From contig JACESF010000008.1 in NCBI GenBank assembly GCA_013911975.1, forward strand, positions 1 through 64,000: a stretch of 64,000 bases of DNA, written 5' to 3'. Each line of letters opens with the position of its first letter. Position 1 is the stretch's first letter. Shown here piece by piece: positions 214 through 40,469 of this stretch. The notes below the pieces were generated by a model. It was not told where the DNA came from and did not search any database. It was given only the letters and a program-made list of their open reading frames with translations. A program made the translations under genes and the position numbers. The DNA comes from Hyphomicrobiales bacterium. Lineage in GTDB: Bacteria; Pseudomonadota; Alphaproteobacteria; Rhizobiales; Xanthobacteraceae.

Positions 214-1281
214 ATGACCCTCAGCTATCCCCGCTTCAAGGCCGCCGCCTGCCACGCCTCGTCCGTCTTCCTGGATGCGGAGAAGACCGCCGAGAAGGCC
301 TGCGACCTCATCGCCGAGGCCGCCTCCAACGGGGCGGCGCTGGTGGTGTTCCCCGAATCCTTCCTGCCCGGCTTCCCGGTCTGGGCGGCGCTTCAGGCGC
401 CCATCTACAATCACGGCTTCTTCCGCGCCCTCGCCGCCGAGGCGCAGAAGCTGTCGGACGGCGCGGTGCGCGCCATCCGCATGGCGGCGCGGCGCCACGG
501 CGTGTTCGTCTCGCTGGGCTTCACGGAGGGCACGGATGCCAGCGTCGGCTGCATCTGGAACTCAAACATCCTCATCGGCCCGGACGGCGCCATCCTGAAC
601 CACCACCGCAAGCTCGTTCCCACCTTCTACGAGAAGCTGGTCTGGGCGAACGGCGATGCGCGCGGCCTGCGCGTGACCAACACGGAACTCGGCCGCGTGG
701 GCATGCTGATCTGCGGGGAGAACACCAATCCCCTGTCGCGCTACGCCCTCATGGCCCAGGGCGAGCAGGTGCACATCTCCACCTATCCGCCCATGTGGCC
801 CACCCGCCCGCCGGAAGAAGACGGCGCCTATGACCTGAAGCGCGCCATCGAGATCCGCGCGGGCGCCCATGCCTTCGAGGCCAAGGTGTTCAACATCGTC
901 GCCTCCGGCTTCGTGGACGCCGCCATGCGCGAGGCCATGGGCTCGCTGGGCCGGGAAAGCCTGGAGGTGATGGACAAGTCGCCGCGCGGCATCTCCATGG
1001 TGCTCGACCCGTCCTCCCAGGTGGTGGGCGACGTGCTCTCCGACCACGAGGGCATCCTCTATGCGGACATCGACACCGCGCGCTGCGTGGAGCCCAAGCA
1101 GTTCCACGACGTGGTGGGCTATTACAACCGCTTCGACGTGTTCCACCTCCAGGTGGACCGCACCGCGCGCGAGCCTGCCTATTTCGCGGAATCCGCCGCC
1201 CTGAAGGAGCCGCTGGGCGGCCCGGCGCCCGCCCTCGGCGGCACCGACGACATCTTCGCGGACATGAGCGGCACGCCCTGA
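214..1281 (+). CDS. Nitrilase-family nitrile hydrolase
   Basis: A 355-residue carbon-nitrogen hydrolase. The catalytic triad of the nitrilase superfamily is visible: Glu48 in PESFLPGFP, Lys133 in HHRKLVPT and Cys167 in LICGENTNP. The downstream HISTYPP stretch is typical of true aliphatic or aryl nitrilases rather than amidases, so the expected reaction is nitrile to carboxylate plus ammonia in the cytoplasm. An open frame extends upstream to position 70, but those 48 residues do not resemble the family, which normally begins a few residues before the first beta strand as here. The Shine-Dalgarno before 214 is weak, so the start is not certain. The gene lies just upstream of an ABC transporter and shares a region with an aldoxime dehydratase at 6373-7422, which suits an aldoxime-nitrile pathway. 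The exact nitrile is unknown. Confidence 0.85.
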   Translation: MTLSYPRFKAAACHASSVFLDAEKTAEKACDLIAEAASNGAALVVFPESFLPGFPVWAALQAPIYNHGFFRALAAEAQKLSDGAVRAIRMAARRHGVFVSLGFTEGTDASVGCIWNSNILIGPDGAILNHHRKLVPTFYEKLVWANGDARGLRVTNTELGRVGMLICGENTNPLSRYALMAQGEQVHISTYPPMWPTRPPEEDGAYDLKRAIEIRAGAHAFEAKVFNIVASGFVDAAMREAMGSLGRESLEVMDKSPRGISMVLDPSSQVVGDVLSDHEGILYADIDTARCVEPKQFHDVVGYYNRFDVFHLQVDRTAREPAYFAESAALKEPLGGPAPALGGTDDIFADMSGTP

Positions 1282-1309
1282 GCGGCGTGCGCGACGCGGC
1301 ACGACTTCA

Positions 1310-1328
1310 CCCGGCGCCTGACGCCGGG
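1310..1328 (+). other. Intercistronic hairpin after the nitrilase gene
   Basis: A perfect 7-bp stem (CCCGGCG/CGCCGGG) with a 5-nt loop lies between the nitrilase stop and the binding-protein gene. It is followed by an A-rich stretch rather than a T-run, so it is a poor intrinsic terminator. It may instead protect mRNA ends. Function is inferred. Confidence 0.35.
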
Positions 1329-1373
1329 ATCTAAAAAAGCCAACCAGAACAAACATATCCAGAGGATCGGAAC

Positions 1374-2552
1374 ATGAAGATGAAGAGAAGCCTTTCAGCC
1401 CTCGCGTGCGTCGCCATCGCCGCGCTCGGCGTCACGCCCGCGCTCGCCCAGACCAAGGAGACGGTGAAGATCGCCTTCATCGGCCCGCTCACCGGCGGCA
1501 ACTCGGCCACCGGCCTCGGCGGGCGCAATTCCGCCTCGCTAGCGGTGGACCTCCACAATGCCAAGCCCGGCGGAAAATACACCTACGAACTCGTGCCCTT
1601 CGATGACGAGTGCAAGCCGAACGTGGGCGTGCAGGTGGCCACCAAGGCGGCATCCGACAAGTCCATCATCGCCGGCATCACCCATTATTGCTCGGCGGTC
1701 GCCATCGCGACGGTGGAGACCTACAACCGCTTCGGCCTGCCTGTTGTGGTGTGGGGCGCTGTGCTGCCGGAGATCACCTACGGCAACGACTTCAAGGAGA
1801 TCCACCGCGTCAACGGCACCATGATCAACGAAGGCAAGATGGCGTCCGAGTTCCTGACGCAGCAGGGCTTCAAGACCTTCGTGGTGATCCACGACACCAC
1901 CGATTACGGCAAGGGCCAGAACAAGTATTTCGCGGAGAATCTGAAGCCCAAGGGCGGCGACATCCTCGCCACCTTCGCGGTCTCTCCGGACCAGCAGGAC
2001 TTCACCGCCGAGCTGACCAAGGTGAAGGAGCTGAAGCCCGACGTGGTGTTCATCGGCGGCCTCACCCCGCTCGGCGTGCGCGTGCGCTCGCAGATGGACC
2101 GGCTCGGCATCCCCGCCCAGCTCGCGGGCGTCTCGGGCATCATGAGCGCGGGCTTCATCGAGGGTGCCGGGCAGGCGGCGGAAGGCACTGTCTCGTTCCA
2201 TAACGGCGCGCCGCTGAGCAAGTATGCGGACGGCAAGGCGTTCATGGACGCCTACACCAAGGCGGGCTATCGCGAGGATCCGGACGCCTACGGTCCCTTC
2301 GCCTTCTCCGCCGCCAACCTCGTGATGGACGCCATCGACAAGGTGGGGCCGGACCGCAAGAAGGTGCGCGACGTGCTCAACACCACCAAGGGCTACAAGG
2401 CGCTGGTGGGCGAGGTGAATTTCGACGACCACCGCCAGAACATCGTCTCGGCCAACGTCTACGTGGCCCAGGACGGCAAGTGGGTCTACTGGCCCGAGAG
2501 CGCCTATGCGGCGGGCACGAAGAAGCTGCCCGGAAAGCCGGCAGGCAACTGA
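1374..2552 (+). CDS. ABC transporter substrate-binding protein (Peripla_BP_6, LivK type)
   Basis: A 392-residue periplasmic binding protein of the hydrophobic amino acid uptake (HAAT/LIV) class. Residues 1-25 form a Sec signal peptide (KMKRS, a hydrophobic core, then cleavage after ALA at AQ). The mature start VKIAFIGPLTGGNS is the characteristic first strand of the family, and length is normal. A good Shine-Dalgarno (AGAGGA) precedes the ATG. Permease and ATPase genes of the same transporter follow at 2688-6313. Because the transporter sits between a nitrilase and an aldoxime dehydratase, the ligand may be a nitrile, aldoxime, amide or derived acid rather than leucine. That is inference, as LIV-type binding proteins have very diverse ligands. 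Confidence 0.9.
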   Translation: MKMKRSLSALACVAIAALGVTPALAQTKETVKIAFIGPLTGGNSATGLGGRNSASLAVDLHNAKPGGKYTYELVPFDDECKPNVGVQVATKAASDKSIIAGITHYCSAVAIATVETYNRFGLPVVVWGAVLPEITYGNDFKEIHRVNGTMINEGKMASEFLTQQGFKTFVVIHDTTDYGKGQNKYFAENLKPKGGDILATFAVSPDQQDFTAELTKVKELKPDVVFIGGLTPLGVRVRSQMDRLGIPAQLAGVSGIMSAGFIEGAGQAAEGTVSFHNGAPLSKYADGKAFMDAYTKAGYREDPDAYGPFAFSAANLVMDAIDKVGPDRKKVRDVLNTTKGYKALVGEVNFDDHRQNIVSANVYVAQDGKWVYWPESAYAAGTKKLPGKPAGN

Positions 2553-2559
2553 GACGCGG

Positions 2560-2586
2560 GAGGCCGGTCCCCCGTGGCCCGGCCTC
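2560..2586 (+). other. Hairpin between binding-protein and permease genes
   Basis: An 8-bp perfect stem (GAGGCCGG/CCGGCCTC) with an 11-nt loop starts 8 nt after the binding-protein stop. More G/C-run hairpins follow up to about 2640. Such elements commonly stabilise the upstream transcript so that binding protein is made in excess over the membrane parts. No T-run is present, so read-through is expected. Confidence 0.45.
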
Positions 2587-2687
2587 TCCCCCCGCTCGCG
2601 GCGCCCTTCTTGCAGGGGGTTGCCCCCACAAGCTGGGGCTTGCCCCTCCTGCGGCGCCACCGCCGGTTCATCTCGCGGAGACCATCA

Positions 2688-3608
2688 ATGGATCCCGGCC
2701 TTCTCGCGCAATATCTGTTCAACGGGCTGATGCTCGGCACCATCTACGCCATCGTGGCGGTGGGCTTCTCGCTGTTCTTCGGCGTGCTCGACGTCATCAA
2801 GTTCTCCCACGGCGACGTGGTCACGGTGGGGGCCTTCTCGGCGTTCGGCGCGGCGGGGCTGGTCGCGGCCAGTGTCGCTCTTCCCGGGCCGCTGGCCCTG
2901 GCGCTGGGCCTTCTGGCCGCGCTCGGGGCGGGGGCGGCGTCCGGCATGCTCATCGGCCGCGTGCTGGTGCTGCCCCTCAAGAACGCGCCTGCCGTCAACG
3001 TGCTGCTCGCCACCCTCATGGCCGGCACGGTGCTGCGCGAGGTGATCCGGCTCGGCGTGCCCAATGGCGGCAATCCCAAGCCCTTCCCCGCGCTTCTGCC
3101 GGAGGGCGTGCTGGCCGCCGGCTCCTTCAGCGTGGGCATCGACAGCGTCATCATCCTGGTGGCGGGGCTCGCGGTGGTGGTGGCCACCCATCTCGTCATC
3201 ACCCGCACCCGCCTCGGCCTCGCCATCCGCGCGGTGGCGCAGGACGGGGAGGTGGCCCAGCTCGCCGGTGTCAGCTTCTCGCGCACCGTGCTCGGCACCT
3301 TTGCGCTGGGATCCATGCTCGCCGGCCTCGCGGGGCTGATGCTCGGGCTCTATTACCGGGAAATCAATTTCAACATGGGCGTTCTCCTCGGCATCATCGG
3401 CTTCGCCTGCGCGGTGGTGGGCGGCCTCGGCAGCCTCATCGGCCCCATCCTGGGCGGCTTCCTGTTCGCCGGAATCCAGACCGGCGTCACCGTCGTCCTG
3501 CCCCTCACCAGCGCCTACAAGGACGTGGTGGCCTTCGCCGTCATCATCGCGCTGATCGGGCTGTTCCCCACCGGCCTCATCGCCGAGAAGAGCAGCGAGC
3601 GGGTGTGA
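2688..3608 (+). CDS. livH: Branched-chain-type ABC permease, LivH family
   Basis: A 306-residue inner-membrane permease with about eight hydrophobic segments. The N-terminal part (GLMLGTIYAIVAVGFSLFFG, then FSHGDVV) is the LivH signature. The start at ATG 2688 gives the usual N-terminus; the upstream extension to 2574 runs through a hairpin-rich spacer and is not family-like. It pairs with the LivM-type permease starting 2 nt after its stop to form the translocation pore for the binding protein at 1374. The livH symbol denotes the family only; the substrate is unknown. Confidence 0.88.
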   Translation: MDPGLLAQYLFNGLMLGTIYAIVAVGFSLFFGVLDVIKFSHGDVVTVGAFSAFGAAGLVAASVALPGPLALALGLLAALGAGAASGMLIGRVLVLPLKNAPAVNVLLATLMAGTVLREVIRLGVPNGGNPKPFPALLPEGVLAAGSFSVGIDSVIILVAGLAVVVATHLVITRTRLGLAIRAVAQDGEVAQLAGVSFSRTVLGTFALGSMLAGLAGLMLGLYYREINFNMGVLLGIIGFACAVVGGLGSLIGPILGGFLFAGIQTGVTVVLPLTSAYKDVVAFAVIIALIGLFPTGLIAEKSSERV

Positions 3609-3609
3609 G

Positions 3610-4803
3610 ATGAGCATGATCCAACTCGCCCCCACCCTCGGCGCCGAAAGCGGCCGCGCGGTCGGCCTCCAGCGCCTCGTGGTCGCGCTCACCGTCGCCA
3701 TCCTGTTCGCGGGCGGCGGCCTGCTGCTCCACACCGAGGACCAGATCCAGGTGCTCGTGCTCCTCGCCGCCTTCGTGGCCCTGTTCGCCCTCGGCGAGCG
3801 GCTGGCCGTGGGGCGCCGCATCGCGGCCCTGTGCGTCGCCCATCCCGGCACGGTGAACCTTTCCGCCGCGTTCATGGTGCTCGCCATCGCGGTGGTGCTG
3901 CGGGAAGAGCATTACACCCTCCTGATGATGGCGACCGTCGCCTTGTTCGCCACCGCCGCGGCGGGGCTGACCCTCCAGATGGCGTTCGCGGGCGTGCCCA
4001 ACTTCGCCGGCGCCGCCTTCTTCGCGGTGGGCTCCTATGTGGCCGCCGTGCTGGGGGCGAGCGGCATTCCCCATCTCGTCGTGCTCGCCATCGCGGGCCT
4101 CGCGGCGGCGGTGCTGGGGCTCGCCCTGCTGCTGCCGGTGCTGCGCACGCGGGGCCATTACGCCGCCCTCGTCACCATCGCCTTCGGCCTGCTGCTGCGC
4201 TCCTTCCTGGAGGTGAACGACGTGCTGGGCGGTCCGCAGGGCATGAAGGTGCCGTCCTTCTCCATCTTCGGCCTGTCCTTCAGCCGCATCACCGAGATCG
4301 GCCCCTACGACGTGTCCTTCTACCTGCCCTATGCGCTGGCGGGCTGCGTGCTGTTCGCGCTGGCCTTCGCGCTGGTGCGGCGGCTGGAATTCTCGTTCGC
4401 GGGCGTGGCGCTGGATGCGGTGCGCTCCGACGAGGTGTCGGCCAGCGTGTTCGGCCTCTCCATCGCCCGCTGGAAGGCCACCGCCTTCCTGATGGGCAAC
4501 GCCATGATCGGCGTGGCGGGCGCGCTCTACGGCATGATGAACGGCTTCGTGAACCCCAACAGCGCCAATTTCGGCGACAGCCTCATCATGCTGTCCATCC
4601 TGGTGCTCGGGGGCCTCGGCAATTTGTGGGGCGCGGTGGTGGCCTCGGTGGTGATCCTCGTCATCCCCGAGAAGCTCCAGGCCATCCAGGAATTCCGGCT
4701 GGTCATCTTCGCCCTTCTGGTCATCGCCATCCTGCGCTTCCGCCCCTCCGGCCTCATGCCCCGGGTGACGCGGGACTTCTCCAGCCTCGCGAAGGAGGGG
4801 TGA
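3610..4803 (+). CDS. livM: Branched-chain-type ABC permease, LivM family
   Basis: A 397-residue polytopic permease. The conserved LivM core is visible: LTLQMAFAGVPNFAGAAFFAVGSYVAA near residues 118-144, HYAALVTIAFGLLLR, and a C-terminal VLGGLGNLWGAVVASVVILVIPEKL block. An N-terminal extension of about 95 residues adds further membrane segments. The gene starts in a GTGTGAGATG junction directly after livH and is followed 2 nt later by the ATPase gene, so translation is probably coupled. It is the second half of the transmembrane pore. Confidence 0.88.
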   Translation: MSMIQLAPTLGAESGRAVGLQRLVVALTVAILFAGGGLLLHTEDQIQVLVLLAAFVALFALGERLAVGRRIAALCVAHPGTVNLSAAFMVLAIAVVLREEHYTLLMMATVALFATAAAGLTLQMAFAGVPNFAGAAFFAVGSYVAAVLGASGIPHLVVLAIAGLAAAVLGLALLLPVLRTRGHYAALVTIAFGLLLRSFLEVNDVLGGPQGMKVPSFSIFGLSFSRITEIGPYDVSFYLPYALAGCVLFALAFALVRRLEFSFAGVALDAVRSDEVSASVFGLSIARWKATAFLMGNAMIGVAGALYGMMNGFVNPNSANFGDSLIMLSILVLGGLGNLWGAVVASVVILVIPEKLQAIQEFRLVIFALLVIAILRFRPSGLMPRVTRDFSSLAKEG

Positions 4804-4805
4804 GC

Positions 4806-5582
4806 ATGGACGCGCTCCTGGCCTGCAACGGCCTCACCATGCGCTTCGGCGGCCTGACCGCCCTGGACGCCGTGGACATCGCGGTGGGGAAGGGAGAGAC
4901 GGTGGGGCTCGTCGGCCCCAACGGCTCCGGCAAGACCACGTTCTTCAACGTGCTCACCGGGCTCTACAAGCCCTCGTCCGGGGCCGTGCGGTTCGGCGCG
5001 CAGGACCTGTTCGCCCGCTCCCCGCAGGAGATCGGCCGGGCCGGGGTGGCGCGGACCTTCCAGCGCTCGCGCCTGATGCTGGACCAGACGGTGTTCGACA
5101 ATGTGGCGGTGGGCGCCCTCGGGCGGCTGGACCTCGGCCTGATGACGGCGCTGGTGCGGCGCGGGCGGTTCCGCCGCCAGCTCGCGGCGCTGGTGGAGCA
5201 GGCCACCGCGCTCACCCGAAGGTTCAATCCGCAGATCGCGGCGAACCTGTTCCGCCCGGCGGGCAGCTTCACCATGATCGACCGGCGGCGCATCGAGATC
5301 TGCCGGGCGCTCATCGGCGCGCCGCGCCTCCTGCTGCTGGACGAGCCGTCCGCCGGCATGACCCATGACGAGACCCGCCAGCTCATGGACGACCTGCTGG
5401 CGTTCCGGGAGGAGATGCCGGACCTCGCCATCGTTCTGGTGGAACACGAGATGGACGTGATCCGCCGCATCTCGGACCGCTGCATCGTGCTGAATTTTGG
5501 CAAGAAGATCTTCGAGGGGCCGTTCGACGCGCTCCTGGCCGACCGCGAGGTCCAGACCGCCTATCTGGGAGGCAGCCAATGA
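4806..5582 (+). CDS. livG: Branched-chain-type ABC ATPase, LivG family
   Basis: A 258-residue ATP-binding subunit. Walker A is GPNGSGKTT near residue 37 and Walker B is LLLLDEPSAGM, followed by the H-loop VEHEMD. The usual LSGGQ signature is degenerate here: the matching place reads FTMIDRRRIEICRAL, lacking the glycine pair. This variant also occurs in the second transporter of this window (ELAQADRRRLEIARAL), so it is probably a subfamily trait. The real start at 4806 lies inside a longer frame that overlaps livM in another phase. The 3' end overlaps livF by 4 nt (ATGA). Confidence 0.9.
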   Translation: MDALLACNGLTMRFGGLTALDAVDIAVGKGETVGLVGPNGSGKTTFFNVLTGLYKPSSGAVRFGAQDLFARSPQEIGRAGVARTFQRSRLMLDQTVFDNVAVGALGRLDLGLMTALVRRGRFRRQLAALVEQATALTRRFNPQIAANLFRPAGSFTMIDRRRIEICRALIGAPRLLLLDEPSAGMTHDETRQLMDDLLAFREEMPDLAIVLVEHEMDVIRRISDRCIVLNFGKKIFEGPFDALLADREVQTAYLGGSQ

Positions 5583-6313
5583 GCGCGCAGCCGAAGGGCG
5601 ACCGCCGCCTGTCCGTCATGGGCGTCACCACGGGTTATGACGGCGCGGACGTGCTGCACGACGTGTCCATCGAGGCGAAGCCGGGGCGCATCACCTGCAT
5701 CCTGGGGGCCAACGGGGCGGGCAAATCCACGCTTATCCGCTCCATCCTCGGCCTCACGCCCGTCCGGCGGGGCGCGGTGGCGTTCGGGGGCGACACCATC
5801 ACCAACCTCGCCACCCACCGCATCGCCGCCAAGGGGATCGCCACGGTGCCGGAGGGCAACCGCGTGCTGCCGCGCATGACCGTGCTGGAGAACCTCCAGG
5901 TGGGCGGATTGCTGGAGAAGGACCGCCACCGCCTCGCGGCGCGCATGGAGGCCCTGTTCGAGACCTTCCCGCGCCTCAAGGAACGGCGCAACCAGCTCGC
6001 GGGCACGCTCTCGGGCGGCGAGCGCTCCATGCTCTCCATCGCGCGCGGGCTGATGACCGACCCGGAGCTGATCGTCTTCGACGAGCCCTCCCTCGGCCTC
6101 TCGCCGCTGTTCGTCTCGGAGGTGTTCCGCATCGTCCGGCGGCTGAAGGAGGAGGGCTACACCATCCTCCTCGTGGAACAGAATGTGCGCCAGACGCTGG
6201 ACGTGGCGGATGACGGCTACGTGCTCGCCCAGGGCCGCGTGGTGGCCTCCGGCACCAGCGCTGCGCTCGCCGAGGACCAGGAACTCCACAAAGCCTATTT
6301 CGGCGTGCACTGA
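5579..6313 (+). CDS. livF: Branched-chain-type ABC ATPase, LivF family
   Basis: A 244-residue ATPase with Walker A GANGAGKST, the LivF-type signature TLSGGERSMLSIARGL, Walker B ELIVFDEPSLGLSP and the Q/H-loop LLVEQNV. It forms a heterodimer with the LivG protein encoded immediately upstream (ATGA overlap). The LivF signature is canonical whereas the LivG partner has lost LSGGQ, so one of the two composite ATP sites may be weak. It is the last gene of the first transporter, and the aldoxime dehydratase gene starts 60 bp downstream in the same direction. Confidence 0.9.
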   Translation: MSAQPKGDRRLSVMGVTTGYDGADVLHDVSIEAKPGRITCILGANGAGKSTLIRSILGLTPVRRGAVAFGGDTITNLATHRIAAKGIATVPEGNRVLPRMTVLENLQVGGLLEKDRHRLAARMEALFETFPRLKERRNQLAGTLSGGERSMLSIARGLMTDPELIVFDEPSLGLSPLFVSEVFRIVRRLKEEGYTILLVEQNVRQTLDVADDGYVLAQGRVVASGTSAALAEDQELHKAYFGVH

Positions 6314-6372
6314 GACCGTCGGCATACCGGACGCAGGCCGGAAAACAGGCAAGGAAAGCCAAGGAAGGAAAC

Positions 6373-7422
6373 ATGGGACTTCCCGTCTATGAACGCATCA
6401 ACCCGCTGCGCAAGCCCAAGGGGTTCGAGCCGGTGGTGCAGCGCTGGTCAGCGGCCTTCCCGAACCGCTGCCGCACCCTGTGCGTGGCCTTCCACGGCAT
6501 CCAGGGCGAGAGCCCCGAGGTGGTCTATGCCTCGCCCTTCTTCCCCTGGATCGACGCCGCGTTGGCGGGGCCGGACGCGCCCACCATGAGCGACCATGCC
6601 TGGTTCGTGGATCCGAACGGCCTCTATACCCACATCGTCGCCGCCTATTGGGTGGACGAGGCGCGGCGCGACCGCTTCCTCGCCTCGCCCCTGGTGCGCG
6701 ACTGGTGGGACGACGCGGCGCGCCTGACGGAGCCGACAGGCTATTTCCGCGAGAGCCTGACCGTGCCCCTGGAGCGGCAGGAAACGCTCTATTGGCAGGA
6801 TTATGCGGGCGGCCTCTCCGCCTCGCCCGACATCGGCATCTATCCCACCCCCTGGTGCGGCTATTACGGCGCCATGCGCGACCGGATTCCTCTCGCGGCT
6901 GTGGACGGGCTGGAAAGCCCGCTGGCGGAACTTACCCCCGTGGAGCGGGAGACGAGGGGCAAGCGCTGGCGGCTGACGGCGCCGCACAATCTGGCGGTCA
7001 TCCGCTCCGCCGCCTTCTGGGGCCGCTGCGATCCCGGGCAGGCGGAGGACTACATGCGCGACCTTCGCGCGCCGCTGCTGCGGGGCATGGACTTCCTGAA
7101 GGAGAATCCCGAGGCCACCGGCTGCGCCTCGCTCCGCTTCCAGCAGACCTGCGACGCGGCGGGCGAGCCGGTGCTGGAAACCCATGCGCTCGGCTATTTC
7201 CTGTCGCTGAGCCACATGGAGCATTGGGCGGAACACCACCCGACCCACGAGGCCATCTTCACGGCGGCCATCGCCCGCTATCGCAAGTACGGCGCGGCCA
7301 ACCAGCTCCGCACCTGGCACGAGGTGTTCATCCTGCCGGAGACGGAGGCGCAGGCGTTCGAATACGTGAACTGCGCGCCCGGCACCGGCCTGCTCGGCTT
7401 CCTGCCGGGGGAGAGCGCCTGA
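6373..7422 (+). CDS. oxd: Haem-containing aldoxime dehydratase
   Basis: A 349-residue protein matching phenylacetaldoxime/aliphatic aldoxime dehydratases, which remove water from an aldoxime to give a nitrile at a ferrous haem. Family landmarks are the N-terminal VYERINPL region, SLSHMEHWAEHHPTHEAIF near 278-296, WHEVFILP near 315 and FEYVNCAPGTGLLGF near 329. From memory of the OxdRE numbering, the proximal haem ligand should be His292, with Arg171, Ser212 and His316 as distal residues; the first three keep a constant offset, which supports this. A strong Shine-Dalgarno (AAGGAAGG) precedes the ATG. Same-strand position behind the transporter suggests co-transcription with 1374-6313. Nitrilase at 214 would consume its product. 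Confidence 0.88.
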   Translation: MGLPVYERINPLRKPKGFEPVVQRWSAAFPNRCRTLCVAFHGIQGESPEVVYASPFFPWIDAALAGPDAPTMSDHAWFVDPNGLYTHIVAAYWVDEARRDRFLASPLVRDWWDDAARLTEPTGYFRESLTVPLERQETLYWQDYAGGLSASPDIGIYPTPWCGYYGAMRDRIPLAAVDGLESPLAELTPVERETRGKRWRLTAPHNLAVIRSAAFWGRCDPGQAEDYMRDLRAPLLRGMDFLKENPEATGCASLRFQQTCDAAGEPVLETHALGYFLSLSHMEHWAEHHPTHEAIFTAAIARYRKYGAANQLRTWHEVFILPETEAQAFEYVNCAPGTGLLGFLPGESA

Positions 7423-7484
7423 GCCGCGCGTGCCCCTTCCGCTGACGCGGCCGGTTGCCTCGTGCGGGGACCGTCTCGTTCGCG

Positions 7485-7920
7485 CCTCCCTCTCCCCTCG
7501 CGGGAGAGGGCTGGGGTGAGGGGGCTTTGCCGCCAGCTCGGACCTTCGAGGTCAATCCAGGCGGCGCCCGACCCCTCACCCGCCTCACTGCGCTCTGCAC
7601 CCTCTCCCGCAAGGGGAGAGGGGCGCCCCCGCTGGGCGGGCCCGCTCCGTTGCTTGTCGGTGAAGACCCTTCCGTTCGTGGCCCCCTCTCCCCTCGCGGG
7701 AGAGGGCTGGGGTGAGGGGGCCGTGCCGGTGGTTCGGACCTTCGAGGTCCATCCCGGCGGCGCCCGACCCCTCACCCGCCTCGCTGCGCTCGGCACCCTC
7801 TCCCGCAAGGGGAGAGGGGCGCCCCGCTGGGGCGGGCCCGCTCGGTTGCTGGTCGGTGAAGACCCTTCCGTTCGCGCCTCCCTCTCCCCCCGCGGGAGAG
7901 GGCTGGGGTGAGGGGGCCCC
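7485..7920. repeat. Tandem 196-bp intergenic palindromic repeats
   Basis: The 536-bp gap between the oxd stop and the convergent LysR gene contains no credible gene. It holds a repeat of exact period 196 bp: the CGGGAGAGGGCTGGGGTGAG core occurs at 7501, 7697 and 7893. Two units are complete and a third is partial. Each unit has two palindromes, CCCTCTCCCCTCGCGGGAGAGGG and a GAGAGGG-ended one flanked by ACCCCTCACCCGCCTC. The same family recurs once at 45775-45913. Short open frames here on both strands are composed of the repeat and are not genes. Confidence 0.85.
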
Positions 7921-7958
7921 GCCGCCAGCTCGGACCTTTGAGTTCAGGACGTGCGGCG

Positions 7959-8852
7959 TCAGAATTCCGTCAGGTAGGCCGCGTCGCGCCGGACCACCTC
8001 GGTGAGGTGCTGGAGCACGGCCCGGAAGCGGCCCATGAATTCCAGGTCCTCGTGGACGCTCACATAGATGTCGCGCATCACCACCACCTCGTCGGGCAGG
8101 ATGGGGATGAGGCGCGGATTGCTCTTGGCGGAGAAGAGCGGCAGCAGGCCGATGCCCGCGCCGCGCGCCACGGCATTCTGCTGGGCGTGCATGGAGGTGG
8201 AGCGGAAGGAGACCTTGGCGGGATCCAGCACGTCCAGCAGCCAGTGGACCGGCTGGATGGCGACGAGATCCTCCACATAGTCCACGAACAGGTGGGACGG
8301 CAGTTCCTCGCGGGTTCGGGGCATGCCGAAGCGGCGCACATAGTCCGGCGCGGCGTAGAGGGCGAGGCGGAACGCGCCGATCTTGCGCACCGCGAGGCGC
8401 TGGCCCTGGGGCGGCACGAAGGAGACGAACACGTCCGCCTCGCGCTTGGTGAGGTTGATGAGGTGGCGCTCCGTGACCAGCTCCACCACGAGGCCGGGTT
8501 CCTTCTCCGCCAGTTCCGCGAAGCAGCCCGCGAGATAGAAGGCGCCGATCCCCTCCATGGAGGCCACCCGCACCGCGCCCTTGGGCGCGCTCGGCACCGC
8601 CTGGATGGTCTCCTCGATGGCGACCGCCTCCTGCTCGATGCGCTCGGCCATGGCGAACAGGCGGTGGCCCACTTCCGTGAGCACGAAGCCGTCGGGCTTG
8701 CGGTCGAACAGCTTGAGGGCGAGGTCGCGCTCCAGCTCGCTGATGCGGCGCGAGACGGTGGTGTGGTCCACCTTCAACCGGCGGGCGACGGGCAGCAGAC
8801 GGCCCTGACGCGCCAGTTCCAGGAAGAAGATCAGATCGTTCCAGTTGAACAT
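7959..8852 (-). CDS. LysR-family transcriptional regulator
   Basis: A 297-residue LysR-type regulator. The N-terminal winged helix-turn-helix (residues about 3-62, NWNDLIFFLELARQGRLLPV then DHTTVSRRISELE) is followed by a LysR substrate-binding domain starting near residue 90. The DHTTVSRRI recognition helix is the variant seen in a subgroup of the family. A longer frame reaching 8940 is in another phase and is not the gene. It faces the oxd gene and lies downstream of the monooxygenase gene on the same strand, so it is a candidate regulator for either. The inducer is unknown. Confidence 0.87.
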   Translation of the reverse strand: MFNWNDLIFFLELARQGRLLPVARRLKVDHTTVSRRISELERDLALKLFDRKPDGFVLTEVGHRLFAMAERIEQEAVAIEETIQAVPSAPKGAVRVASMEGIGAFYLAGCFAELAEKEPGLVVELVTERHLINLTKREADVFVSFVPPQGQRLAVRKIGAFRLALYAAPDYVRRFGMPRTREELPSHLFVDYVEDLVAIQPVHWLLDVLDPAKVSFRSTSMHAQQNAVARGAGIGLLPLFSAKSNPRLIPILPDEVVVMRDIYVSVHEDLEFMGRFRAVLQHLTEVVRRDAAYLTEF

Positions 8853-8997
8853 GGTGTCCCCGGGCGCGACCCGCGCGCCGGGAGGACGATAGGAAAAATA
8901 GCCGGTCCGATAAAGTATCTAGACCGCACGCGGCCCCCAAAACGCCTGTCCGAAACAGAGTCGTCCGGGGCGCCGCGCGGGAGATCCGTCCGCCGGG

Positions 8998-10269
8998 TCA
9001 GGCCCGGCAGGATTCGTCGTAGGCGGTGTAGGCGCGCTGGATGGAGATCTGGTCCGCCAGATATTTGGCGTCGTGCCACACGCCCCAGATGAAGCTGGAG
9101 CCGCGACGCGACTGCCAGGGCAGGCCGAGGAAATAGATGCCCGGCTCGCACGACACGCCGCGCTGGTGGCGCGGCTTTCCGGCGGCGTCGAAGGCATCCA
9201 CCTTCATCCAGCTATAATCCACCGCGAAGCCGGTGGCCCAGATGATGGTGGAGACGCCCGCGGCCTTCAGGTCCAGCGATAGCAGCGGGTTGCGCACGCA
9301 ATCGGCGTCCGGAACCGTCGCGCGGGCCTCCGGGTCCTCCGGCAGGTCCAGGCCGTTACGGGCCACATAGGCGTCCGCTTCGTCCAAGAGGGCGCGGTTG
9401 TTGGTATCGCCGCCGTTCAGGTTCGCCACGAGGTCGGGCGCGAAGCGGATCACGCCGTCAGCATAGGAGGCGGTGAGACCCACGAGCGTCATGCCGTCGG
9501 CCGCGAGGCGGCGGAAATCGATGGTGTGGCCGCCATTGGCGCCGCTCACCGCGATGGTCACATGCTCCTTGCCGGGCTCCTGCGCGGCAGCGTCCCACTT
9601 GCCGAGCACGCCCAGCCACCACACGAAGTCGCGGCCGCGATAGGCGCGGGGCGGGCGGTCATGGGGACCGACGGAGAGATAGACCGTGCGGCCGGCGCGC
9701 AGCAATTCCTCGGCGATCTGCACGCCCGAGGAGCCCGCGCCCACAACCAGCACCGCGCCGTCCGGCAACTGGCCGGGATTGCGATAGCCGGTGGAATGGA
9801 TCTGGAGCACGCCGGCCTCGGCAGGCACCACGGGGGGGATGATGGGCTTCTGGAACGGGCCGGTGGCGGCCACCACGCGCTTCGCCTCGATGACGCCGTT
9901 CGAGGTCTCCACCCGGAAGCCGGGACGGCCGGGGAGACGCTCCAGCTTCGTCACCTCGACGCCGCAGCGGATGGGGGCCGCGATCTTCTCGGCATAGGCC
10001 ACGAAATAATCCGCCACCTGCTCCTTGGCCGGGAAATCGTCCGGGCCGATGGCGGCGTTGAAGTCTGTGAAGGTGAGGCCGGGGAAGCGGTCGTGCCAGG
10101 CGGGGCCGTTGGCCACCAGCGAATCCCACCGCTCCGAGCGCCAGCGCTCGGCGATCCGGCTGCGCTCCAGGACGAGATGCGGCACGCCGGCCTTGCCCAG
10201 ATGCTCGCTCATGGCCAGACCGGCCTGCCCGGCGCCGATGACCAGCGTGTCGATCGTCTCAACTGACAT
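8998..10269 (-). CDS. FAD/NADPH-dependent flavin monooxygenase (CzcO/FMO-like)
   Basis: A 423-residue two-dinucleotide-binding flavoprotein. GAGQAGLAMSEHLG at residues 13-26 binds FAD and VVGAGSSGVQIAEELL near 180 binds NADPH. IIWATGF near 353 matches the FATGY-type motif of class B flavin monooxygenases, and the region QIHSTGYRNP replaces the FMO/BVMO fingerprint in a degenerate form. Such enzymes oxygenate N, S or ketone groups, and some convert amines to oximes. Given the oxd and nitrilase genes nearby, amine N-oxygenation is attractive but unproven. Other options are a YUCCA-like decarboxylating monooxygenase or an uncharacterised CzcO-like oxidoreductase. Confidence 0.8.
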   Translation of the reverse strand: MSVETIDTLVIGAGQAGLAMSEHLGKAGVPHLVLERSRIAERWRSERWDSLVANGPAWHDRFPGLTFTDFNAAIGPDDFPAKEQVADYFVAYAEKIAAPIRCGVEVTKLERLPGRPGFRVETSNGVIEAKRVVAATGPFQKPIIPPVVPAEAGVLQIHSTGYRNPGQLPDGAVLVVGAGSSGVQIAEELLRAGRTVYLSVGPHDRPPRAYRGRDFVWWLGVLGKWDAAAQEPGKEHVTIAVSGANGGHTIDFRRLAADGMTLVGLTASYADGVIRFAPDLVANLNGGDTNNRALLDEADAYVARNGLDLPEDPEARATVPDADCVRNPLLSLDLKAAGVSTIIWATGFAVDYSWMKVDAFDAAGKPRHQRGVSCEPGIYFLGLPWQSRRGSSFIWGVWHDAKYLADQISIQRAYTAYDESCRA

Positions 10270-10360
10270 ATTCGGTCCCTTTTCTGGCGTGTCCGGCGCC
10301 GGATTCGGCTTTCGCCGAAGACTTCGTTTTCAACCTAGGGGCAGGACTTGCATCGTTAAA

Positions 10361-10417
10361 TAATTAAACGAATTAGCATTGCTTAGAAAATATTGAAGTA
10401 CACATCGGAATATTGAA
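10361..10417. promoter_or_regulatory. AT-rich control region upstream of the flavin monooxygenase gene
   Basis: An AT-rich island in otherwise GC-rich DNA about 90-150 bp upstream of the monooxygenase start. It contains an inverted repeat TAATT-AAACG-AATTA (10361-10375) and a 9-bp direct repeat AATATTGAA at 10389 and 10409, exactly 20 bp apart. Direct repeats two helical turns apart are typical of regulator binding. No matching gene lies on the plus strand, so it most likely serves the minus-strand monooxygenase. Operator function is inferred. Confidence 0.45.
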
Positions 10418-10521
10418 CGAAACCCGTGCCTTCACGACGCGCCGAGGCAATATGCGAAGGCGCCGCCCCGCGAACACGCCGCCTTTCGGCGGGCGTGGTC
10501 TTGGGCGTTGCGCAAAGGTAA

Positions 10522-10557
10522 GCGGGCGGCGGGCGCGGGGAAGCGCCCGCCGCTCGC
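10522..10557 (-). terminator. Strong hairpin directly after the second binding-protein gene
   Basis: A 14-bp stem with one G-T wobble (GCGGGCGGCGGGCG against CGCCCGCCGCTCGC) and an 8-nt loop begins 3 nt beyond the minus-strand stop codon at 10560. There is no T-run, as is frequent in GC-rich genomes, so it may be a terminator or a 3'-end-protecting structure. Confidence 0.55.
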
Positions 10558-10559
10558 CA

Positions 10560-11717
10560 TCACTGGCGGGTGGTCCAGGCGCCGTCCTTCACTTCGCGCA
10601 GCTCAAGCACCACTTCGCGCTTGGTCTGGCCGTTCTCGTCGAAGGTGGTGCGGCCCATGGCGCCGTCGAAGTCGATGGCGCGGATGGCCTTGGCGATGGC
10701 GGCCTTGTCCGTGGTGCCGGCGGTCTTCAGCGCCTGGATGATGATGTTCGTCGCGTCATAGGCGTTCTTCGTGTAGGAGCCCACCGGCTCGGCGAAGTTC
10801 GCGGCCTGGTAGGCCTTGGTCATGGCGTCCAGCTTCGGGTTGCCCACTTCCTTGGCGATGCCGGAAATGGTGCCGTTGGCAGCCGGGCCGGCGATCTTCA
10901 GGAACTCGCTGTCATAGAAGCCGTCCACGCCGATCATGGGCTGGCTCATGCCGAGTTGCACCATCTGCTGGCGCACCAGGCCGGCTTCCGCCACCACGCC
11001 GCCGAAATAGATGGCGTCGGGAGTGGTGCCCTTGATCTTGGTGAGGAGGGCGCGGAAGTCGGTGGTGCCCACAGGCGCGCTCTCGGCCGCGACGATGGTG
11101 CCGCCCGCCGCCTCGAAGAACTTGCGGAAATTGTCGGTGTTGGCCACGCCGTAATCGCTGGTGTCGGACACGATGGCGATGCGCTTGCCGATGTTCGCGG
11201 CGGCCCACTTGGCCAGCGGGGCGTTGGTGTTCACGAGCGTGGTCACCACGCGCGAGACCATGGGGTTATTCTTCTCGGTGATCTTCGGGCTGATCGCGCC
11301 CCACACCACGAACGGCACGTTGGCGCGGCTGAACACCGGGATGGTGGCGAGCGCGACGCCGCTGTTCCAGTGGCCGGTGGCCGCGACCACCTTCGGGTCG
11401 TTGGTGAGCTTCAGGGCGGCGGCGACGCCGGTCTGCGGGTTGGCGGCGTCATCGAGGATGACCGGCTCGATCTTGAAGGGCAGGCCGCCGGACGCGTTGG
11501 CCTGGTCGATGGCGAGCTGGAAGCCGTTGCGCGCCGCGATGCCCTGCTGGGCATTGCCGCCGCTCAGCGGGCCGATGAAGCCGATCTTCACGGTCTCCTG
11601 CGCGTGCGCGGGGAGAGCGGAGCCGAAGCTCGCGACGGCGAGGGCGCCCGCGAACGCGGCGAGGCCCAGGGAAAAGGTGCGGCGGTGCGTCAGCCGCTCG
11701 GCGGGCGTGAGGGCCAT
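10560..11717 (-). CDS. ABC transporter substrate-binding protein (LivK type), divergent from its transporter operon
   Basis: A 385-residue periplasmic binding protein. The N-terminus has a basic stretch with two arginines (HRRTFSLGL), a hydrophobic core and cleavage after AHA before QETVKIGFIGPLSGG. The mature start is like that of the binding protein at 1374. The start at 11717 was chosen because it supplies the signal peptide; an open frame continues 62 codons further but is not family-like. The gene reads away from the livH-livM-livG-livF set at 12013-15602 across a 295-bp shared control region, so it is the likely receptor for that transporter. The ligand is unknown; the linked deacylase suggests an N-acylated or cyclic amino compound (inference). 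Confidence 0.88.
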   Translation of the reverse strand: MALTPAERLTHRRTFSLGLAAFAGALAVASFGSALPAHAQETVKIGFIGPLSGGNAQQGIAARNGFQLAIDQANASGGLPFKIEPVILDDAANPQTGVAAALKLTNDPKVVAATGHWNSGVALATIPVFSRANVPFVVWGAISPKITEKNNPMVSRVVTTLVNTNAPLAKWAAANIGKRIAIVSDTSDYGVANTDNFRKFFEAAGGTIVAAESAPVGTTDFRALLTKIKGTTPDAIYFGGVVAEAGLVRQQMVQLGMSQPMIGVDGFYDSEFLKIAGPAANGTISGIAKEVGNPKLDAMTKAYQAANFAEPVGSYTKNAYDATNIIIQALKTAGTTDKAAIAKAIRAIDFDGAMGRTTFDENGQTKREVVLELREVKDGAWTTRQ

Positions 11718-12012
11718 GATGTCGTAACTCCTCTGGACCGGCCTTGAGGCGGCCATGCGTGGTTGGTCGGGAGGCCGGAGCATCCCACGGGAGAAGTCTG
11801 AACCCGCCCGCAGCGGGAGGAAAATCGGAACTTCTGAACCTTTGACGTTGGATTTTCCGAACCAAGGCCGGGCGCGCCTGACGTTGGGGACGCGGCAGCG
11901 CACTTCAAAACATCGGACCCATTGATTTGGAAAAAACTATTCTGAACGAAGGCTGCTTTGGGGCACATTCGCGCGATGGGCTAACGAAAGCAGAGCCAGA
12001 AAGAGGCCGTAC
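11718..12012. promoter_or_regulatory. Divergent promoter region between binding protein and permease operon
   Basis: A 295-bp gap separates the starts of the minus-strand binding-protein gene and the plus-strand livH. No gene is seen in it. The half nearest livH (about 11905-11960) is clearly more AT-rich than the surroundings, with an A-run near 11930. Promoters for both directions must lie here. No convincing sigma-70 or sigma-54 element could be fixed by eye. The LysR gene at the end of the operon (17941) is a candidate regulator. Confidence 0.5.
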
Positions 12013-12930
12013 GTGAGTGAACTCTTCTTCCAGCAGATCCTCAACTGGATAACATTGGGAAGCATTTACGCGCTTATCGCGGTCGGCTTCAGCCTGCTTT
12101 TCGGCGTCCTCAACATCATCCACTTCTCCCATGGCGATGTCTCCCTGCTGGGGCCGTTCCTGGCGCTCGCCGTTGTTTCCGCCATCGGTACGGCGCTGGG
12201 CGACGCGAACTCGCTCATGGCGCTTCTTCTTGCCCTGGTGGTGGCGATCGCGCTCACGGGGGTCATCGGCATCCTGCTGGATCTCGTGGTGATCCAGCGC
12301 TTCCGCAAGGCGCCCGCCATGATGGCCCTGGTGGCCACCGTGGCGCTGGGCATCGTGCTGCGCGAGCTGATCCGCCACCTCTTCCCCAATGGCAGCAATC
12401 CCCACGCCTTCCCGCGCCTCGTGGACGGCGAGGTGGTGGTGGGCGGCTTCCCCATTCCGGTGTTCAGCCTCACGGTCATCGCGGTATCCGCGCTGTCCGT
12501 GTGCGCCCTGTTCTACATGCTGAACAACACCCGCCTCGGCCTGCACATCAAGGCGGTGTCGCAGGATCGCGACGCGGCCCGGCTCATGGCCATCAGCCCC
12601 GGCCGCATCTTCCGCGCCACCTTCTTCGTCGCCTCCGCCATCGGCGCGGTGGGCGGCTTGTTCTTCTCCTCCTATGCCGGCATGGCGCGCTTCGATTTCA
12701 GCATCGACGTGGGCCTCATCGGCTTCTCGGCGGCGGTGGTCGGCGGGCTCGGCTCCATGCCGGGCGCCATCATCGGCAGCCTGCTCATCGCGGGGCTCGA
12801 CACGCTGGTGCAGGCGACGGTGCCGAACGGCGCGTCCTACCGCCTCGTCTTCGTGTTCCTGCTGGTCATCGGCGTGCTGGTGTTCCGCCCCTCGGGCCTG
12901 CTGGGCCGCACCCTGGTGGAGAAGGTGTGA
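12013..12930 (+). CDS. livH: Branched-chain-type ABC permease, LivH family (second system)
   Basis: A 305-residue permease starting at GTG 12013 with the LivH signature ITLGSIYALIAVGFSLLFGVLNIIHFSHGDVS. It aligns along its length with the permease at 2688, including LREL/EVIRLxPNGxNPxxFP and FSAAVVGGLGS-type blocks, so the two transporters are paralogous. Its stop overlaps the ATG of the next gene (TGATG), indicating translational coupling. It probably forms the pore with the LivM protein encoded next. Confidence 0.88.
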   Translation: MSELFFQQILNWITLGSIYALIAVGFSLLFGVLNIIHFSHGDVSLLGPFLALAVVSAIGTALGDANSLMALLLALVVAIALTGVIGILLDLVVIQRFRKAPAMMALVATVALGIVLRELIRHLFPNGSNPHAFPRLVDGEVVVGGFPIPVFSLTVIAVSALSVCALFYMLNNTRLGLHIKAVSQDRDAARLMAISPGRIFRATFFVASAIGAVGGLFFSSYAGMARFDFSIDVGLIGFSAAVVGGLGSMPGAIIGSLLIAGLDTLVQATVPNGASYRLVFVFLLVIGVLVFRPSGLLGRTLVEKV

Positions 12931-14102
12931 TGGCGCACGCGGCCTCCCCCTCCGCCTCGGGCAATCCGGTGTCCGGCATGCTCACCGTCATCGCCGTGCA
13001 GGTGGCGGGCGCGCTCTATCTGCGCCAGTTCCTGCTCATCGACGACTGGCGCTTCGTGCTCGGCCTGCTGGCGCTGTTCGCGGCCGTGCTGGTGTTCCTG
13101 GAGCGCGTGCCCTCCGTGGAGACGCGCATCGAGGCGGCCTTCGCCCGCCATTCGCGCCTCGCCTTGCTGCTGGGCATCGTGCTGGTCCTGGGCTTTCCCT
13201 TCGTTCTGGAGGGCAACACCTATGCGCTGCACCTGTGCGTCATCTCCATGCTCTATGCGGTGCTCGCGCTGGCGCTGAACTTCCAGCTCGGTAGCGCCAA
13301 TATCCCGAACTTCGCCACCGGCGCCTCCTACGGCATCGGGGCCTATGCCTCGGCGCTGCTGGCGTTGAATTTCGGGGTGAGCTTCTGGCTGGCGCTGCCC
13401 GCCGCCGCCGTGGTGGCCACCATCTTCGGCTTCCTGCTGGGCATCCCGTCCATGCGCACGCGGGACAGCTACCTCGCCCTCGTGACCATCGCGTTCGGCG
13501 TGGTGGTGCACCAGCTTCTGAACAATCTGGAATTCACCGGCGGCCCCAACGGCCTCGTGGGCATTCCCGTGCCGGAACTGTTCGGCCATGCCTTCAGCGA
13601 TCCGCTGGTCATTCTCGGCCATTCGCTGCCGCCGCAGGCGAACTTCTATTATCTGTCGGCGCTGCTGGTGTTTATCTCCATCGTGTTCGCCGAGCGCCTG
13701 CATGATTCCCGCGTGGGCCTCGCTTGGAACGCGCTCCGGGCCGATGAACTGGCGGCGCGCTGCCAGGGCATCAACGTCACCTGGTACAAGGTGCTGGCCT
13801 TCGCGGTGGATGCGTTCCTCGCGGGCTTCGCGGGCACCATCTACGCCTTCTATGTGGGCTTCATCTCGCCCGACAATTTCACCTTCCTCGTCTCCGTCAC
13901 CATCATGACCATGGTGATCGCCGGGGGCATGGACAACATCCTGGGCGTCATCGTGGGCGCCTTCCTGCTGACCATGCTGCCCGAGAAGCTCAGGGCCTTC
14001 TCCGACTACCGGATCCTGTTCTTCGGCGTCACCGTCATCCTGTTCCTGATGATCCGGCCCCAGGGCCTCTTCCCCCAGCGCCTGCGACGCTACGGAGGCT
14101 GA
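12930..14102 (+). CDS. livM: Branched-chain-type ABC permease, LivM family (second system)
   Basis: A 390-residue polytopic permease. It starts at ATG 12930, overlapping the livH stop; a longer in-phase frame upstream is a shadow of livH. The LivM core is present (ALNFQLGSANIPNFATGASYGIGAYASALL; SYLALVTIAFGVVVHQLL; a C-terminal IIVGAFLLTMLPEKL block). An N-terminal extension of about 90 residues carries extra membrane segments, as in the first system. It is followed 2 nt later by livG. Confidence 0.88.
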   Translation: MAHAASPSASGNPVSGMLTVIAVQVAGALYLRQFLLIDDWRFVLGLLALFAAVLVFLERVPSVETRIEAAFARHSRLALLLGIVLVLGFPFVLEGNTYALHLCVISMLYAVLALALNFQLGSANIPNFATGASYGIGAYASALLALNFGVSFWLALPAAAVVATIFGFLLGIPSMRTRDSYLALVTIAFGVVVHQLLNNLEFTGGPNGLVGIPVPELFGHAFSDPLVILGHSLPPQANFYYLSALLVFISIVFAERLHDSRVGLAWNALRADELAARCQGINVTWYKVLAFAVDAFLAGFAGTIYAFYVGFISPDNFTFLVSVTIMTMVIAGGMDNILGVIVGAFLLTMLPEKLRAFSDYRILFFGVTVILFLMIRPQGLFPQRLRRYGG

Positions 14103-14104
14103 CC

Positions 14105-14917
14105 ATGGGCATTTCCGCATCCTCCCCCACCGTCCTGGAGGGCGAGAACCTCACCATGCGCTTCGGCGGCCTCGTCGCCATGGCGGAGGTGGCGTTCACC
14201 CTCAAGCGCGGCGAGATCCTCGGCATCATCGGCCCCAACGGCGCGGGCAAGTCCACGCTGCTCAACATCATCACGGGCATCTACATCCCCTCCTCGGGGG
14301 AGGTGCGCCTGGAAGGCCAGCGGCTCAACGGCGTGCCCGCCCACAGGATCGTGGCGCGGGGCATCGCCCGCACCTTCCAGTCGAGCCGCCTGTTCGGGGA
14401 CCTGAGCGTCCTCGACAACGTGGTGATCGGCCGCCACACCCACACCAAGGCGGGCGTGTTCGACGCCATCTTCCGGCGCGGGCGGGCGAAGGCCGAGCTT
14501 GAGGCCGCCGCCGCCCATGCGGAGGGGCTGCTGAAAAGCGTCTCACGCGGCCTCTATGACCAGCGCCACCGCCCGGCGGGCGAACTGGCCCAGGCCGACC
14601 GCCGCCGCCTGGAGATCGCCCGCGCGCTCGCCACCGATCCCAAGGTGCTGCTGCTGGACGAGCCGTCCTCCGGCATGGACGACGCGGACACGGACGCGCT
14701 GATGGACGACATCCGCGCCGTGTGCGCCCAGCGCCCGGACCTCGCGCTCATGATCATCGAGCACGACATGCGCCTCGTCGCGAGCCTGCCGCACCGCGTG
14801 ATGGTGCTGGACTATGGGCAGAAGCTCGCCGACGGGCCCTATGAGGAGATCCGCAAGATCCCGCGGGTCCAGGAAGCCTATCTCGGACGCAAGGCGACGC
14901 AGCATGCTGGAGCTTGA
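14105..14917 (+). CDS. livG: Branched-chain-type ABC ATPase, LivG family (second system)
   Basis: A 270-residue ATPase with Walker A GPNGAGKST, Walker B KVLLLDEPSSGMD and the H-loop IIEHDM. As in the first LivG of this window, the LSGGQ signature is missing and the segment reads ELAQADRRRLEIARAL. The shared loss in two paralogous transporters points to a distinct LIV subfamily. The 3' end overlaps livF by 14 nt. Confidence 0.88.
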   Translation: MGISASSPTVLEGENLTMRFGGLVAMAEVAFTLKRGEILGIIGPNGAGKSTLLNIITGIYIPSSGEVRLEGQRLNGVPAHRIVARGIARTFQSSRLFGDLSVLDNVVIGRHTHTKAGVFDAIFRRGRAKAELEAAAAHAEGLLKSVSRGLYDQRHRPAGELAQADRRRLEIARALATDPKVLLLDEPSSGMDDADTDALMDDIRAVCAQRPDLALMIIEHDMRLVASLPHRVMVLDYGQKLADGPYEEIRKIPRVQEAYLGRKATQHAGA

Positions 14918-16765: not shown

Positions 16766-16774
16766 GGTAACGCC

Positions 16775-23961: not shown

Positions 23962-24380
23962 GACACAGACCCTCACCCTCGAGACCGCGGAAATGGAGCA
24001 ATGCCGGGCGGAGCGGGCACAGGCCCACTCGCCGGTTCACACGTCACGACCGGGGAGGTCGGCTAGTGCTGCCAGATCTCGGTGAAGTAGAGGGGGCGGG
24101 AATCGAAAGTCAGCATGGTTCGGCGGTCATTCGCAGTTGGCAAATGGCTGACCGCCGCCGGACAAAAGCTGCCCGGCGCAAGATCCGCCACATCTGTCGT
24201 AAAAGGAATACACCGCCGCGCCGAAGCTTGGCGTAGAGGAACCATACGAGTCCGGGCCGGACTTGGATATGGCGGCGGCCGTCACAGAGGGTCAACAACG
24301 CGTGAGCGTGGCCGTGATGGGGCCATGCCTCCGATAGGCGCGGCACCGATCCGCCTGGTCCGGCCGCACCGGATCAGATT
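23962..24380. other. Intergenic region upstream of the GH81 gene; no gene seen
   Basis: This 419-bp stretch separates the GH81 start from the stop of the diguanylate cyclase gene, both on the minus strand. Short frames on both strands lack Shine-Dalgarno sequences and family resemblance. It must hold the GH81 promoter. The part from 24100 to 24300 is somewhat less GC-rich, but no element could be fixed by eye. Confidence 0.5.
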
Positions 24381-40450: not shown

Positions 40451-40469
40451 GGCTCGCGTGCCTCGCTCA

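Follow-up and report, generated by a model that had tools for sequence, protein, structure and literature searches.

A LIV-type ABC importer encoded between nitrilase and aldoxime dehydratase in a Xanthobacteraceae genome, and the recurrent pairing of these enzymes with importers

The first 64,000 nucleotides of contig JACESF010000008.1 (assembly GCA_013911975.1, a Hyphomicrobiales bacterium of the family Xanthobacteraceae), hereafter the window, form the beginning of contig C111 in a genome of 4.39 Mb and open with seven genes arranged head to tail on the plus strand (214–7422): a nitrilase, a substrate-binding protein (SBP), two permeases, two ATPases and a haem aldoxime dehydratase (Oxd). 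The most far-reaching interpretation, with a probability of roughly 0.5, is that dedicated aldoxime or nitrile importers are a functional part of the aldoxime–nitrile pathway, that they were recruited or exchanged at least four and probably five times, each being co-inherited with Oxd and nitrilase, and that they carry a polar aldoxime or nitrile of plant type that does not simply diffuse into the cell. The recruitments counted are those of two separate LIV lineages, a NitT-type ATP-binding cassette (ABC) importer, a sodium:solute symporter (SSF) and, probably, a third LIV set. The importer very probably belongs functionally to the pathway and import of some compound of this pathway has good support; the aldoxime or nitrile itself is the more likely cargo, and a plant is a plausible source of the compound.

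The nitrilase (214–1281, in a frame open from 70, with 214 as the likelier start) matched the Pfam family CN_hydrolase at 135.9 bits and contains the triad E48-K133-C167. It is followed by the periplasmic binding protein SBP1 (1374–2552; Peripla_BP_6, 155.5 bits), a LivH-type permease (2688–3608, with a likely ATG at 2688 in a frame open from 2574; BPD_transp_2, 146.3 bits), a LivM-type permease (3610–4803; BPD_transp_2, 106.5 bits), a LivG-type ATPase (4800–5582; ABC_tran, 84.4 bits), a LivF-type ATPase (5579–6313; ABC_tran, 102.9 bits) and Oxd (6373–7422; Dehydratase_hem, 238.7 bits against a cut-off of 25). The gaps along the row are, from 5′ to 3′, 92, 135 (to 2688), 1, −4, −4 and 59 bases, and this spacing is operon-like. 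The SBP, the two BPD_transp_2 permeases and the two ATPases make up a LIV-type ABC importer in one unit, none of whose five subunits reached the NCBIfam Liv and Urt cut-offs, and the linkage of Oxd and nitrilase expected of an aldoxime–nitrile pathway cluster is present, with the two genes on the same strand at opposite ends of the row. Residues R171, S212 and H316 of Oxd and its haem ligand H292 were aligned with R178, S219, H320 and H299 of OxdRE (3a15), which we take to be the three catalytic residues and the proximal haem ligand, respectively. The protein remained under the NCBIfam cut-off for the aliphatic OxdA equivalog (200.7 against 600 bits); judged by its sequence it is an Oxd, without assignment to the aliphatic OxdA subtype. 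Solved nitrilases and cyanide dihydratases matched the nitrilase at up to 168.4 bits, and the Nit6803 family cut-off (TIGR04048) was not reached (197.1 against 502.6 bits). An earlier note, made from the letters of the window, had described a nitrilase with a Glu-Lys-Cys triad and a haem aldoxime dehydratase at 6373–7422 that bracket a complete LIV-type ABC transporter; all seven genes were found in that order on the plus strand, together with the three triad residues, the Dehydratase_hem match and the four active-site residues of Oxd.

The surroundings of Oxd were surveyed in 391 genomes of the family, in which PF13816 was detected at 103 places in 94 genomes (nine of them with two places). 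All 103 places were examined, mostly over about 20 kb, some being ended by contig ends and three covering less than 5 kb (L049, L071 and L220). The annotation used profiles made from the window genes, that is, for the LIV type and ABC ATPases only, and genes less than 1.5 kb apart were chained. Oxd adjoins an ABC importer at 27 of the 103 places, 26 of the 32 outside the genus Bradyrhizobium (g24, which includes B. forestalis, L011) and one of the 71 inside it (L072). The exact order of the window occurs at six places (the window, L043, L044, L053, L056 and L065) and the same gene set in a changed order at five (L050, L052, L055, L064 and L072). Xanthobacter sp. YC-JY1 and X. aminoxidans share the gene order of the window. 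Clade A of Oxd is accompanied by its own LIV set at 11 places and clade B/C by a LIV set at 12 (L003, L042, L045, L046, L048, L049, L054, L060, L062, L063, L068 and L070), the contig of L045 stopping after two SBP genes with no permease visible. Clade D has a NitT-type importer between nitrilase and Oxd at three places (L057, L067 and L069), and at L067 Pfam recognised an NMT1 binding protein together with an ATPase and two BPD_transp_1 permeases. A separate, third LIV set is present at L061. The NMT1 protein was the one subunit checked by Pfam at L057 and L069, as were SBP and LivM at L061, the other subunits there resting on the profiles, and the importers of clade D and L061 were recognised after the chain count. 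Five places outside Bradyrhizobium are without an importer (L047, L051, L058, L059 and L066), and L071 is a fragment with an SBP match whose importer status was left unassigned in the count. Of the Bradyrhizobium places, 69 show only nitrilase and Oxd, and at L074/L011 (Bradyrhizobium forestalis) an Oxd 66% identical to that of the window is broken into pieces by stops, with no importer in the stretch examined. At L061, LivM and nitrilase share one open frame of 696 codons (7215–9305) with both Pfam domains, a fusion or a lost stop seen in one genome. At L057, a separate LIV operon lies 1.7 kb downstream of Oxd.

The genome of the window possesses a second Oxd (in the cluster part at C51:4408–6734, L003), 39% identical to the first, which follows its own SBP gene; next to it stands a divergent SBP-LivH-LivM-LivG set, the two SBP genes being divergent. 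Contig C120 (L248) ends with genes for a LivF-type ATPase and for a nitrilase that shares 95% identity with the one in the Aquabacter cavernae cluster. When the C51 and C120 ends are aligned with the A. cavernae locus, their matching parts are separated there by about 30 bases. Two clusters, of types A and B, therefore seem to be present in the genome, the second split over two contig ends.

Since LIV operons are abundant, the adjacency could be a by-product of their number: 38 Peripla_BP_6 genes were counted in this genome, a second, unrelated LIV operon starts 3 kb downstream of the row, and a second LIV operon also lies nearby in L050, L057, L064 and L070. With 38 such genes in 4.39 Mb, any one gene should have about 0.10 of them in the 6 kb to each of its sides taken together; both Oxd genes of the genome adjoin a LIV operon and the arrangement recurs in relatives, which argues that the adjacency is not due to chance. 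The association was also found from the side of the importer. When SBP1 was searched against the 391 genomes, 12 places reached at least 71% identity, and at 11 of these Oxd is 3.9–4.1 kb away; at the twelfth (G351, L118), LivM is cut short, the genome has no Oxd match and the neighbourhood resembles that of plasmid pCW1_1. Among plasmids, 16 records had an SBP match, and all nine at 74.7% identity or above carry Oxd downstream on the same strand, while the seven weaker ones (51–66%) are absent from the 34 plasmid records in which Oxd was matched. With the clade B protein as query, only two plasmid records were returned, at less than 60% identity. Co-divergence of Oxd and SBP, described below, also stands against mere abundance, as do 69 of the 71 Bradyrhizobium places, which lack the link even though seven genomes of that genus show 40–86 first-look SBP candidates. 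Because the arrangement is conserved, abundance is contradicted as a general account, and it is considered highly improbable.

A tree was built from 72 SBPs. Its clade A, with 16 rows, comprises 15 SBPs encoded next to Oxd and that of G351 and has a support of 100; clade B/C, in which each of the 20 rows has Oxd as a neighbour, has a support of 99. Forcing both into one clade cost 104 log-likelihood units, with a p value of 0.00013 in the approximately unbiased (AU) test, which was run on 26 chosen rows with quick trees without bootstrap and with long outgroup branches. In these trees the LIV lineages of clades A and B/C are separate and a single common clade is rejected; the position of the L061 SBP, on a very long branch, is unsure. 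On the 54-row tree of Oxd, from which L074 was omitted as too short, the five importer labels need four changes, the minimum possible, and A, B/C and D each form one group, while the importer-less places do not (three changes); L176 was labelled as having no importer there despite its symporter. The nitrilase tree (43 rows) needs five changes for six labels including the symporter, again the minimum possible, with weak support for A (63). As reconstructed here, the Oxd and nitrilase trees follow importer type. Distances between SBPs and between Oxds correlate within clade A (r = 0.84, 16 loci) and within clade B/C (r = 0.92, 12 loci), with none of 5000 permutations as high in either case, and the importer was therefore inherited with its enzyme. 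In L176 and in the near-identical Halomonas plasmid L242, the symporter gene immediately precedes nitrilase and Oxd; the Oxd of L176 is placed next to B/C. The L242 Oxd was seen as two overlapping matches in different frames. Oxd and nitrilase are thus accompanied by five importer lineages from three classes of transporter, and the pairings with the NitT type and with SSF look like separate recruitments or replacements, because these transporter classes are unrelated to LIV; gain and exchange of an importer are indistinguishable in these unrooted trees.

The beginning of SBP1 resembles, by reading, a signal peptide, and its predicted fold is that of a LIV-type binding protein (mean pLDDT, the predicted local distance difference test score, of 87.1). 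The nearest structures were found to be leucine, alanine and isoleucine binders (Foldseek and VIA), the leading ones 23–25% identical, with hydroxybenzoate, keto-acid, pyroglutamate and amide (AmiC) binders further down; the Foldseek and VIA matches leave the ligand unnamed. When compared with E. coli LivK, SBP1 retains S79 and two cysteines and carries V, L and S in place of T102, Y202 and E226. The residues S79, T102, Y202 and E226 are presumably the main-chain anchors of leucine, an assignment for which a literature search gave no source. By these anchors, three of four being replaced, SBP1 does not qualify as specific for branched-chain amino acids: LIV membership stands by structure, and amino acid specificity does not follow from it. 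The loss of the three anchors speaks against an ordinary leucine-type ligand. The changes extend to all 16 rows of clade A (V or I at the T102 position). In clade B/C, A replaces E226 and F is aligned with T102 in 20 of 20 rows; the E226 replacement is a weak point there, since all eight other SBPs of the window genome in the alignment are also without E226 (two have D). Twenty-three positions separate the 16 clade A rows from 13 cousins, 251 and 253 among those near the pocket, and several of the 23 are common to the two nearest cousins; these differences are suggestive only.

The same matches bear on two other proposals for the cargo. The importer might take up a precursor or parent compound (amino acid-like, an amide or a glycosylated plant compound), with the aldoxime or nitrile being formed inside the cell. 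Leucine, alanine and isoleucine binders lead the structural matches of SBP1, ahead of those for hydroxybenzoate, keto-acids, pyroglutamate and AmiC, and the positions of LivK Y150 and Y276, whose roles we assume from general knowledge, stay tyrosine, as this proposal would lead one to expect; three of the four leucine anchors are replaced, however, and a partial scan of the genes next to the clusters revealed no recognisable aldoxime-forming enzyme. A precursor as cargo is thus rated unlikely, while being the strongest of the competing proposals. The aromatic- and keto-acid binders among the top matches would suit an importer that recovers or imports the acid product, or a co-used carbon source, and shares only regulation with the enzymes. 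The association of five importer lineages of three classes with Oxd and nitrilase argues against it, as does the failure to recognise a constant acid-degrading gene set beside the importers in a scan of neighbours that was not exhaustive, and this proposal is regarded as quite improbable.

For dedicated import of an aldoxime or nitrile, we infer the direction of transport, the ligand, the regulation and the role as follows; binding-protein-dependent ABC systems import. The binding protein would capture the compound in the periplasm and LivHMGF would pump it in with ATP, after which Oxd would dehydrate R-CH=NOH to R-CN at its haem and the nitrilase would hydrolyse R-CN to R-COOH and NH3, the unit being switched on by the LysR protein when substrate is present. 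Simple aldoximes probably cross membranes unaided, and for this reason the likeliest cargo would be an aldoxime, nitrile or direct precursor that is polar or charged. Several observations weigh against dedicated import. At 69 of the 71 Bradyrhizobium places, nitrilase and Oxd occur without an adjoining LIV or other profiled ABC gene, so that the pathway does not require an importer. Outside the family, no LIV operon directly adjoined Oxd at any of eight places (nine were above the cut-off, of which G615, at 26.4 bits, was left out); at one of the places outside the family, L139, a LIV operon lies 2.7 kb off on the opposite strand. Cousin SBPs 50–63% identical to SBP1 occur at 34 places (two short G030 pieces left out), and the 19 that were fetched lie with LIV genes, none with Oxd or nitrilase in the stretch retrieved, some stretches being short. 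The same anchor loss was seen in 15 of 15 aligned cousins, none with Oxd found alongside, which makes the change older than the link to Oxd, and anchor loss was consequently dropped as a mark of an aldoxime-specific ligand. The earlier note had placed a dedicated importer inside the pathway and had suggested a search for the same gene order in other genomes. The nitrilase-transporter-oxd order does recur (six of 103 places exact, five rearranged), so that the refuting outcome named in the note, a gene order conserved in no relative, did not arise, and membership of the importer in the pathway cluster is upheld by the conserved order and by the reciprocal link in 11 of 12 genomic and 9 of 9 plasmid cases; the aldoxime, nitrile or plant compound that it had proposed as ligand stays a candidate.

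Known aldoxime–nitrile clusters, namely those of Bacillus sp. OxB-1, Bradyrhizobium sp. LTSPM299, Pseudomonas chlororaphis B23 and Rhodococcus erythropolis N-771, resemble the window in that Oxd is linked to a nitrile-hydrolysing enzyme and a regulator (PMC8955678). In known clusters described there the nitrilase lies directly beside Oxd, as in 69 of the 71 Bradyrhizobium places. The legend of the cluster figure names regulators, nitrile hydratase (NHase) and the P47K activator, the words transporter, uptake and permease are absent from the main text, and, compared with the clusters shown in it, the window alone has a complete ABC importer between the two enzymes; the introduction of the same article describes plant aldoximes. 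The window importer differs from E. coli LivKHMGF and the urea system UrtABCDE in its partners, Oxd and nitrilase, and from LivK in the three residues given above. With the Nit1C clusters, in which a nitrilase is joined by genes for a radical SAM protein, an acetyltransferase, an AIR synthase and a flavoprotein (Podar et al. 2005, PMC1199592), the window shares a nitrilase accompanied by a flavin monooxygenase-type gene (8998–10269, under its family cut-off). No other Nit1C gene type was found among the ten genes scanned at 214–11903, the contig ending upstream of 214, so that membership in Nit1C was not supported, and Oxd and the importer are outside the Nit1C gene order as given in that paper. 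The loci L057, L067 and L069 (NitT type) and L176 and L242 (SSF) have the same neighbours as the window importer, nitrilase and Oxd, and differ in transporter class. No transporter of the aldoxime–nitrile pathway was found described in the accessible text of the open-licence literature searched, including PMC8955678, PMC11568032, PMC1199592, PMC9367139 and PMC9346032, which is not proof of absence. The cluster consists of known parts in a combination not found described; it is conserved, and pairings with an importer occur more than once. For most bacterial aldoxime dehydratases the natural substrate is, to our knowledge, not established. Reviews of these enzymes list far more putative than assayed members. 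An importer co-inherited with the enzyme pair offers a handle, as the ligand of the binding protein would identify the compound on which the pathway naturally acts, and the binding proteins could give the first aldoxime or nitrile transporters. If the proposal is true, bacteria collect such compounds from outside, for instance from plants, rather than only detoxify what leaks in.

The LysR-type regulator is encoded on the minus strand (7959–8852), convergent to Oxd. Its relatives adjoin the cluster in L004–L006 and L010 (87–98% identity) and are placed after the nitrilase in L007–L009 (68–69% identity). Between the two convergent genes, at the 3′ end of the operon, repeats with a spacing of 196 bases (7469–7963) comprise three copies of a 103-base unit with strong palindromic arms and overlap the end of the LysR gene by five bases. 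A TrmB-family regulator stands beside clade B/C clusters (L042:977–1816 and L048:2251–3045) where clade A has LysR, and at plain nitrilase-Oxd loci an AraC-like regulator gene was noted by eye only (14 loci compared). The second LIV operon (10560–17188), which starts 3 kb downstream, includes an M20 hydrolase, a RidA-type protein and a divergent SBP. It was rejected as part of the unit for three reasons: among the annotated loci, the operon and the flavoprotein next to it adjoin the cluster nowhere but in the window and in Aquabacter cavernae (L004/L043), the operon travels with the M20 hydrolase and the RidA-type protein, and the identity of its SBP to SBP1 is 33%. The flavoprotein at 8998–10269, which resembles the MSMEG_0569 family flavin oxidoreductase (363.7 bits against a cut-off of 498.35), was likewise set aside, as it adjoins the cluster only in the window and A. 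cavernae among the annotated loci. In plasmid pCW1_1 (L241) of Bradyrhizobium sp. CW1 (Acmispon strigosus, bulk soil), the cluster is neighboured at 2639–8608 by a nitronate monooxygenase, a major facilitator superfamily (MFS) transporter, two LysR genes and an MmsA-annotated aldehyde dehydrogenase, which together resemble a nitro-compound cassette. Nitronate monooxygenase and MmsA neighbours were also read by eye in L118, and an MmsA-like gene occurs in L050; a valine-derived or 3-nitropropionate chemistry drawn from such neighbours is not general to the clade and was not used. Farther along the window, the genes at 37218–47542 (sarcosine oxidase alpha and beta family, type III glutamate–ammonia ligase, glutamate-synthase-like and glutamine-amidotransferase-like) look like what is presumably the N-methylglutamate (methylamine) pathway. 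A protein of 1678 residues (18940–23976) matches the C-terminal domain of glycoside hydrolase family 81 in its middle and continues in a long tail.

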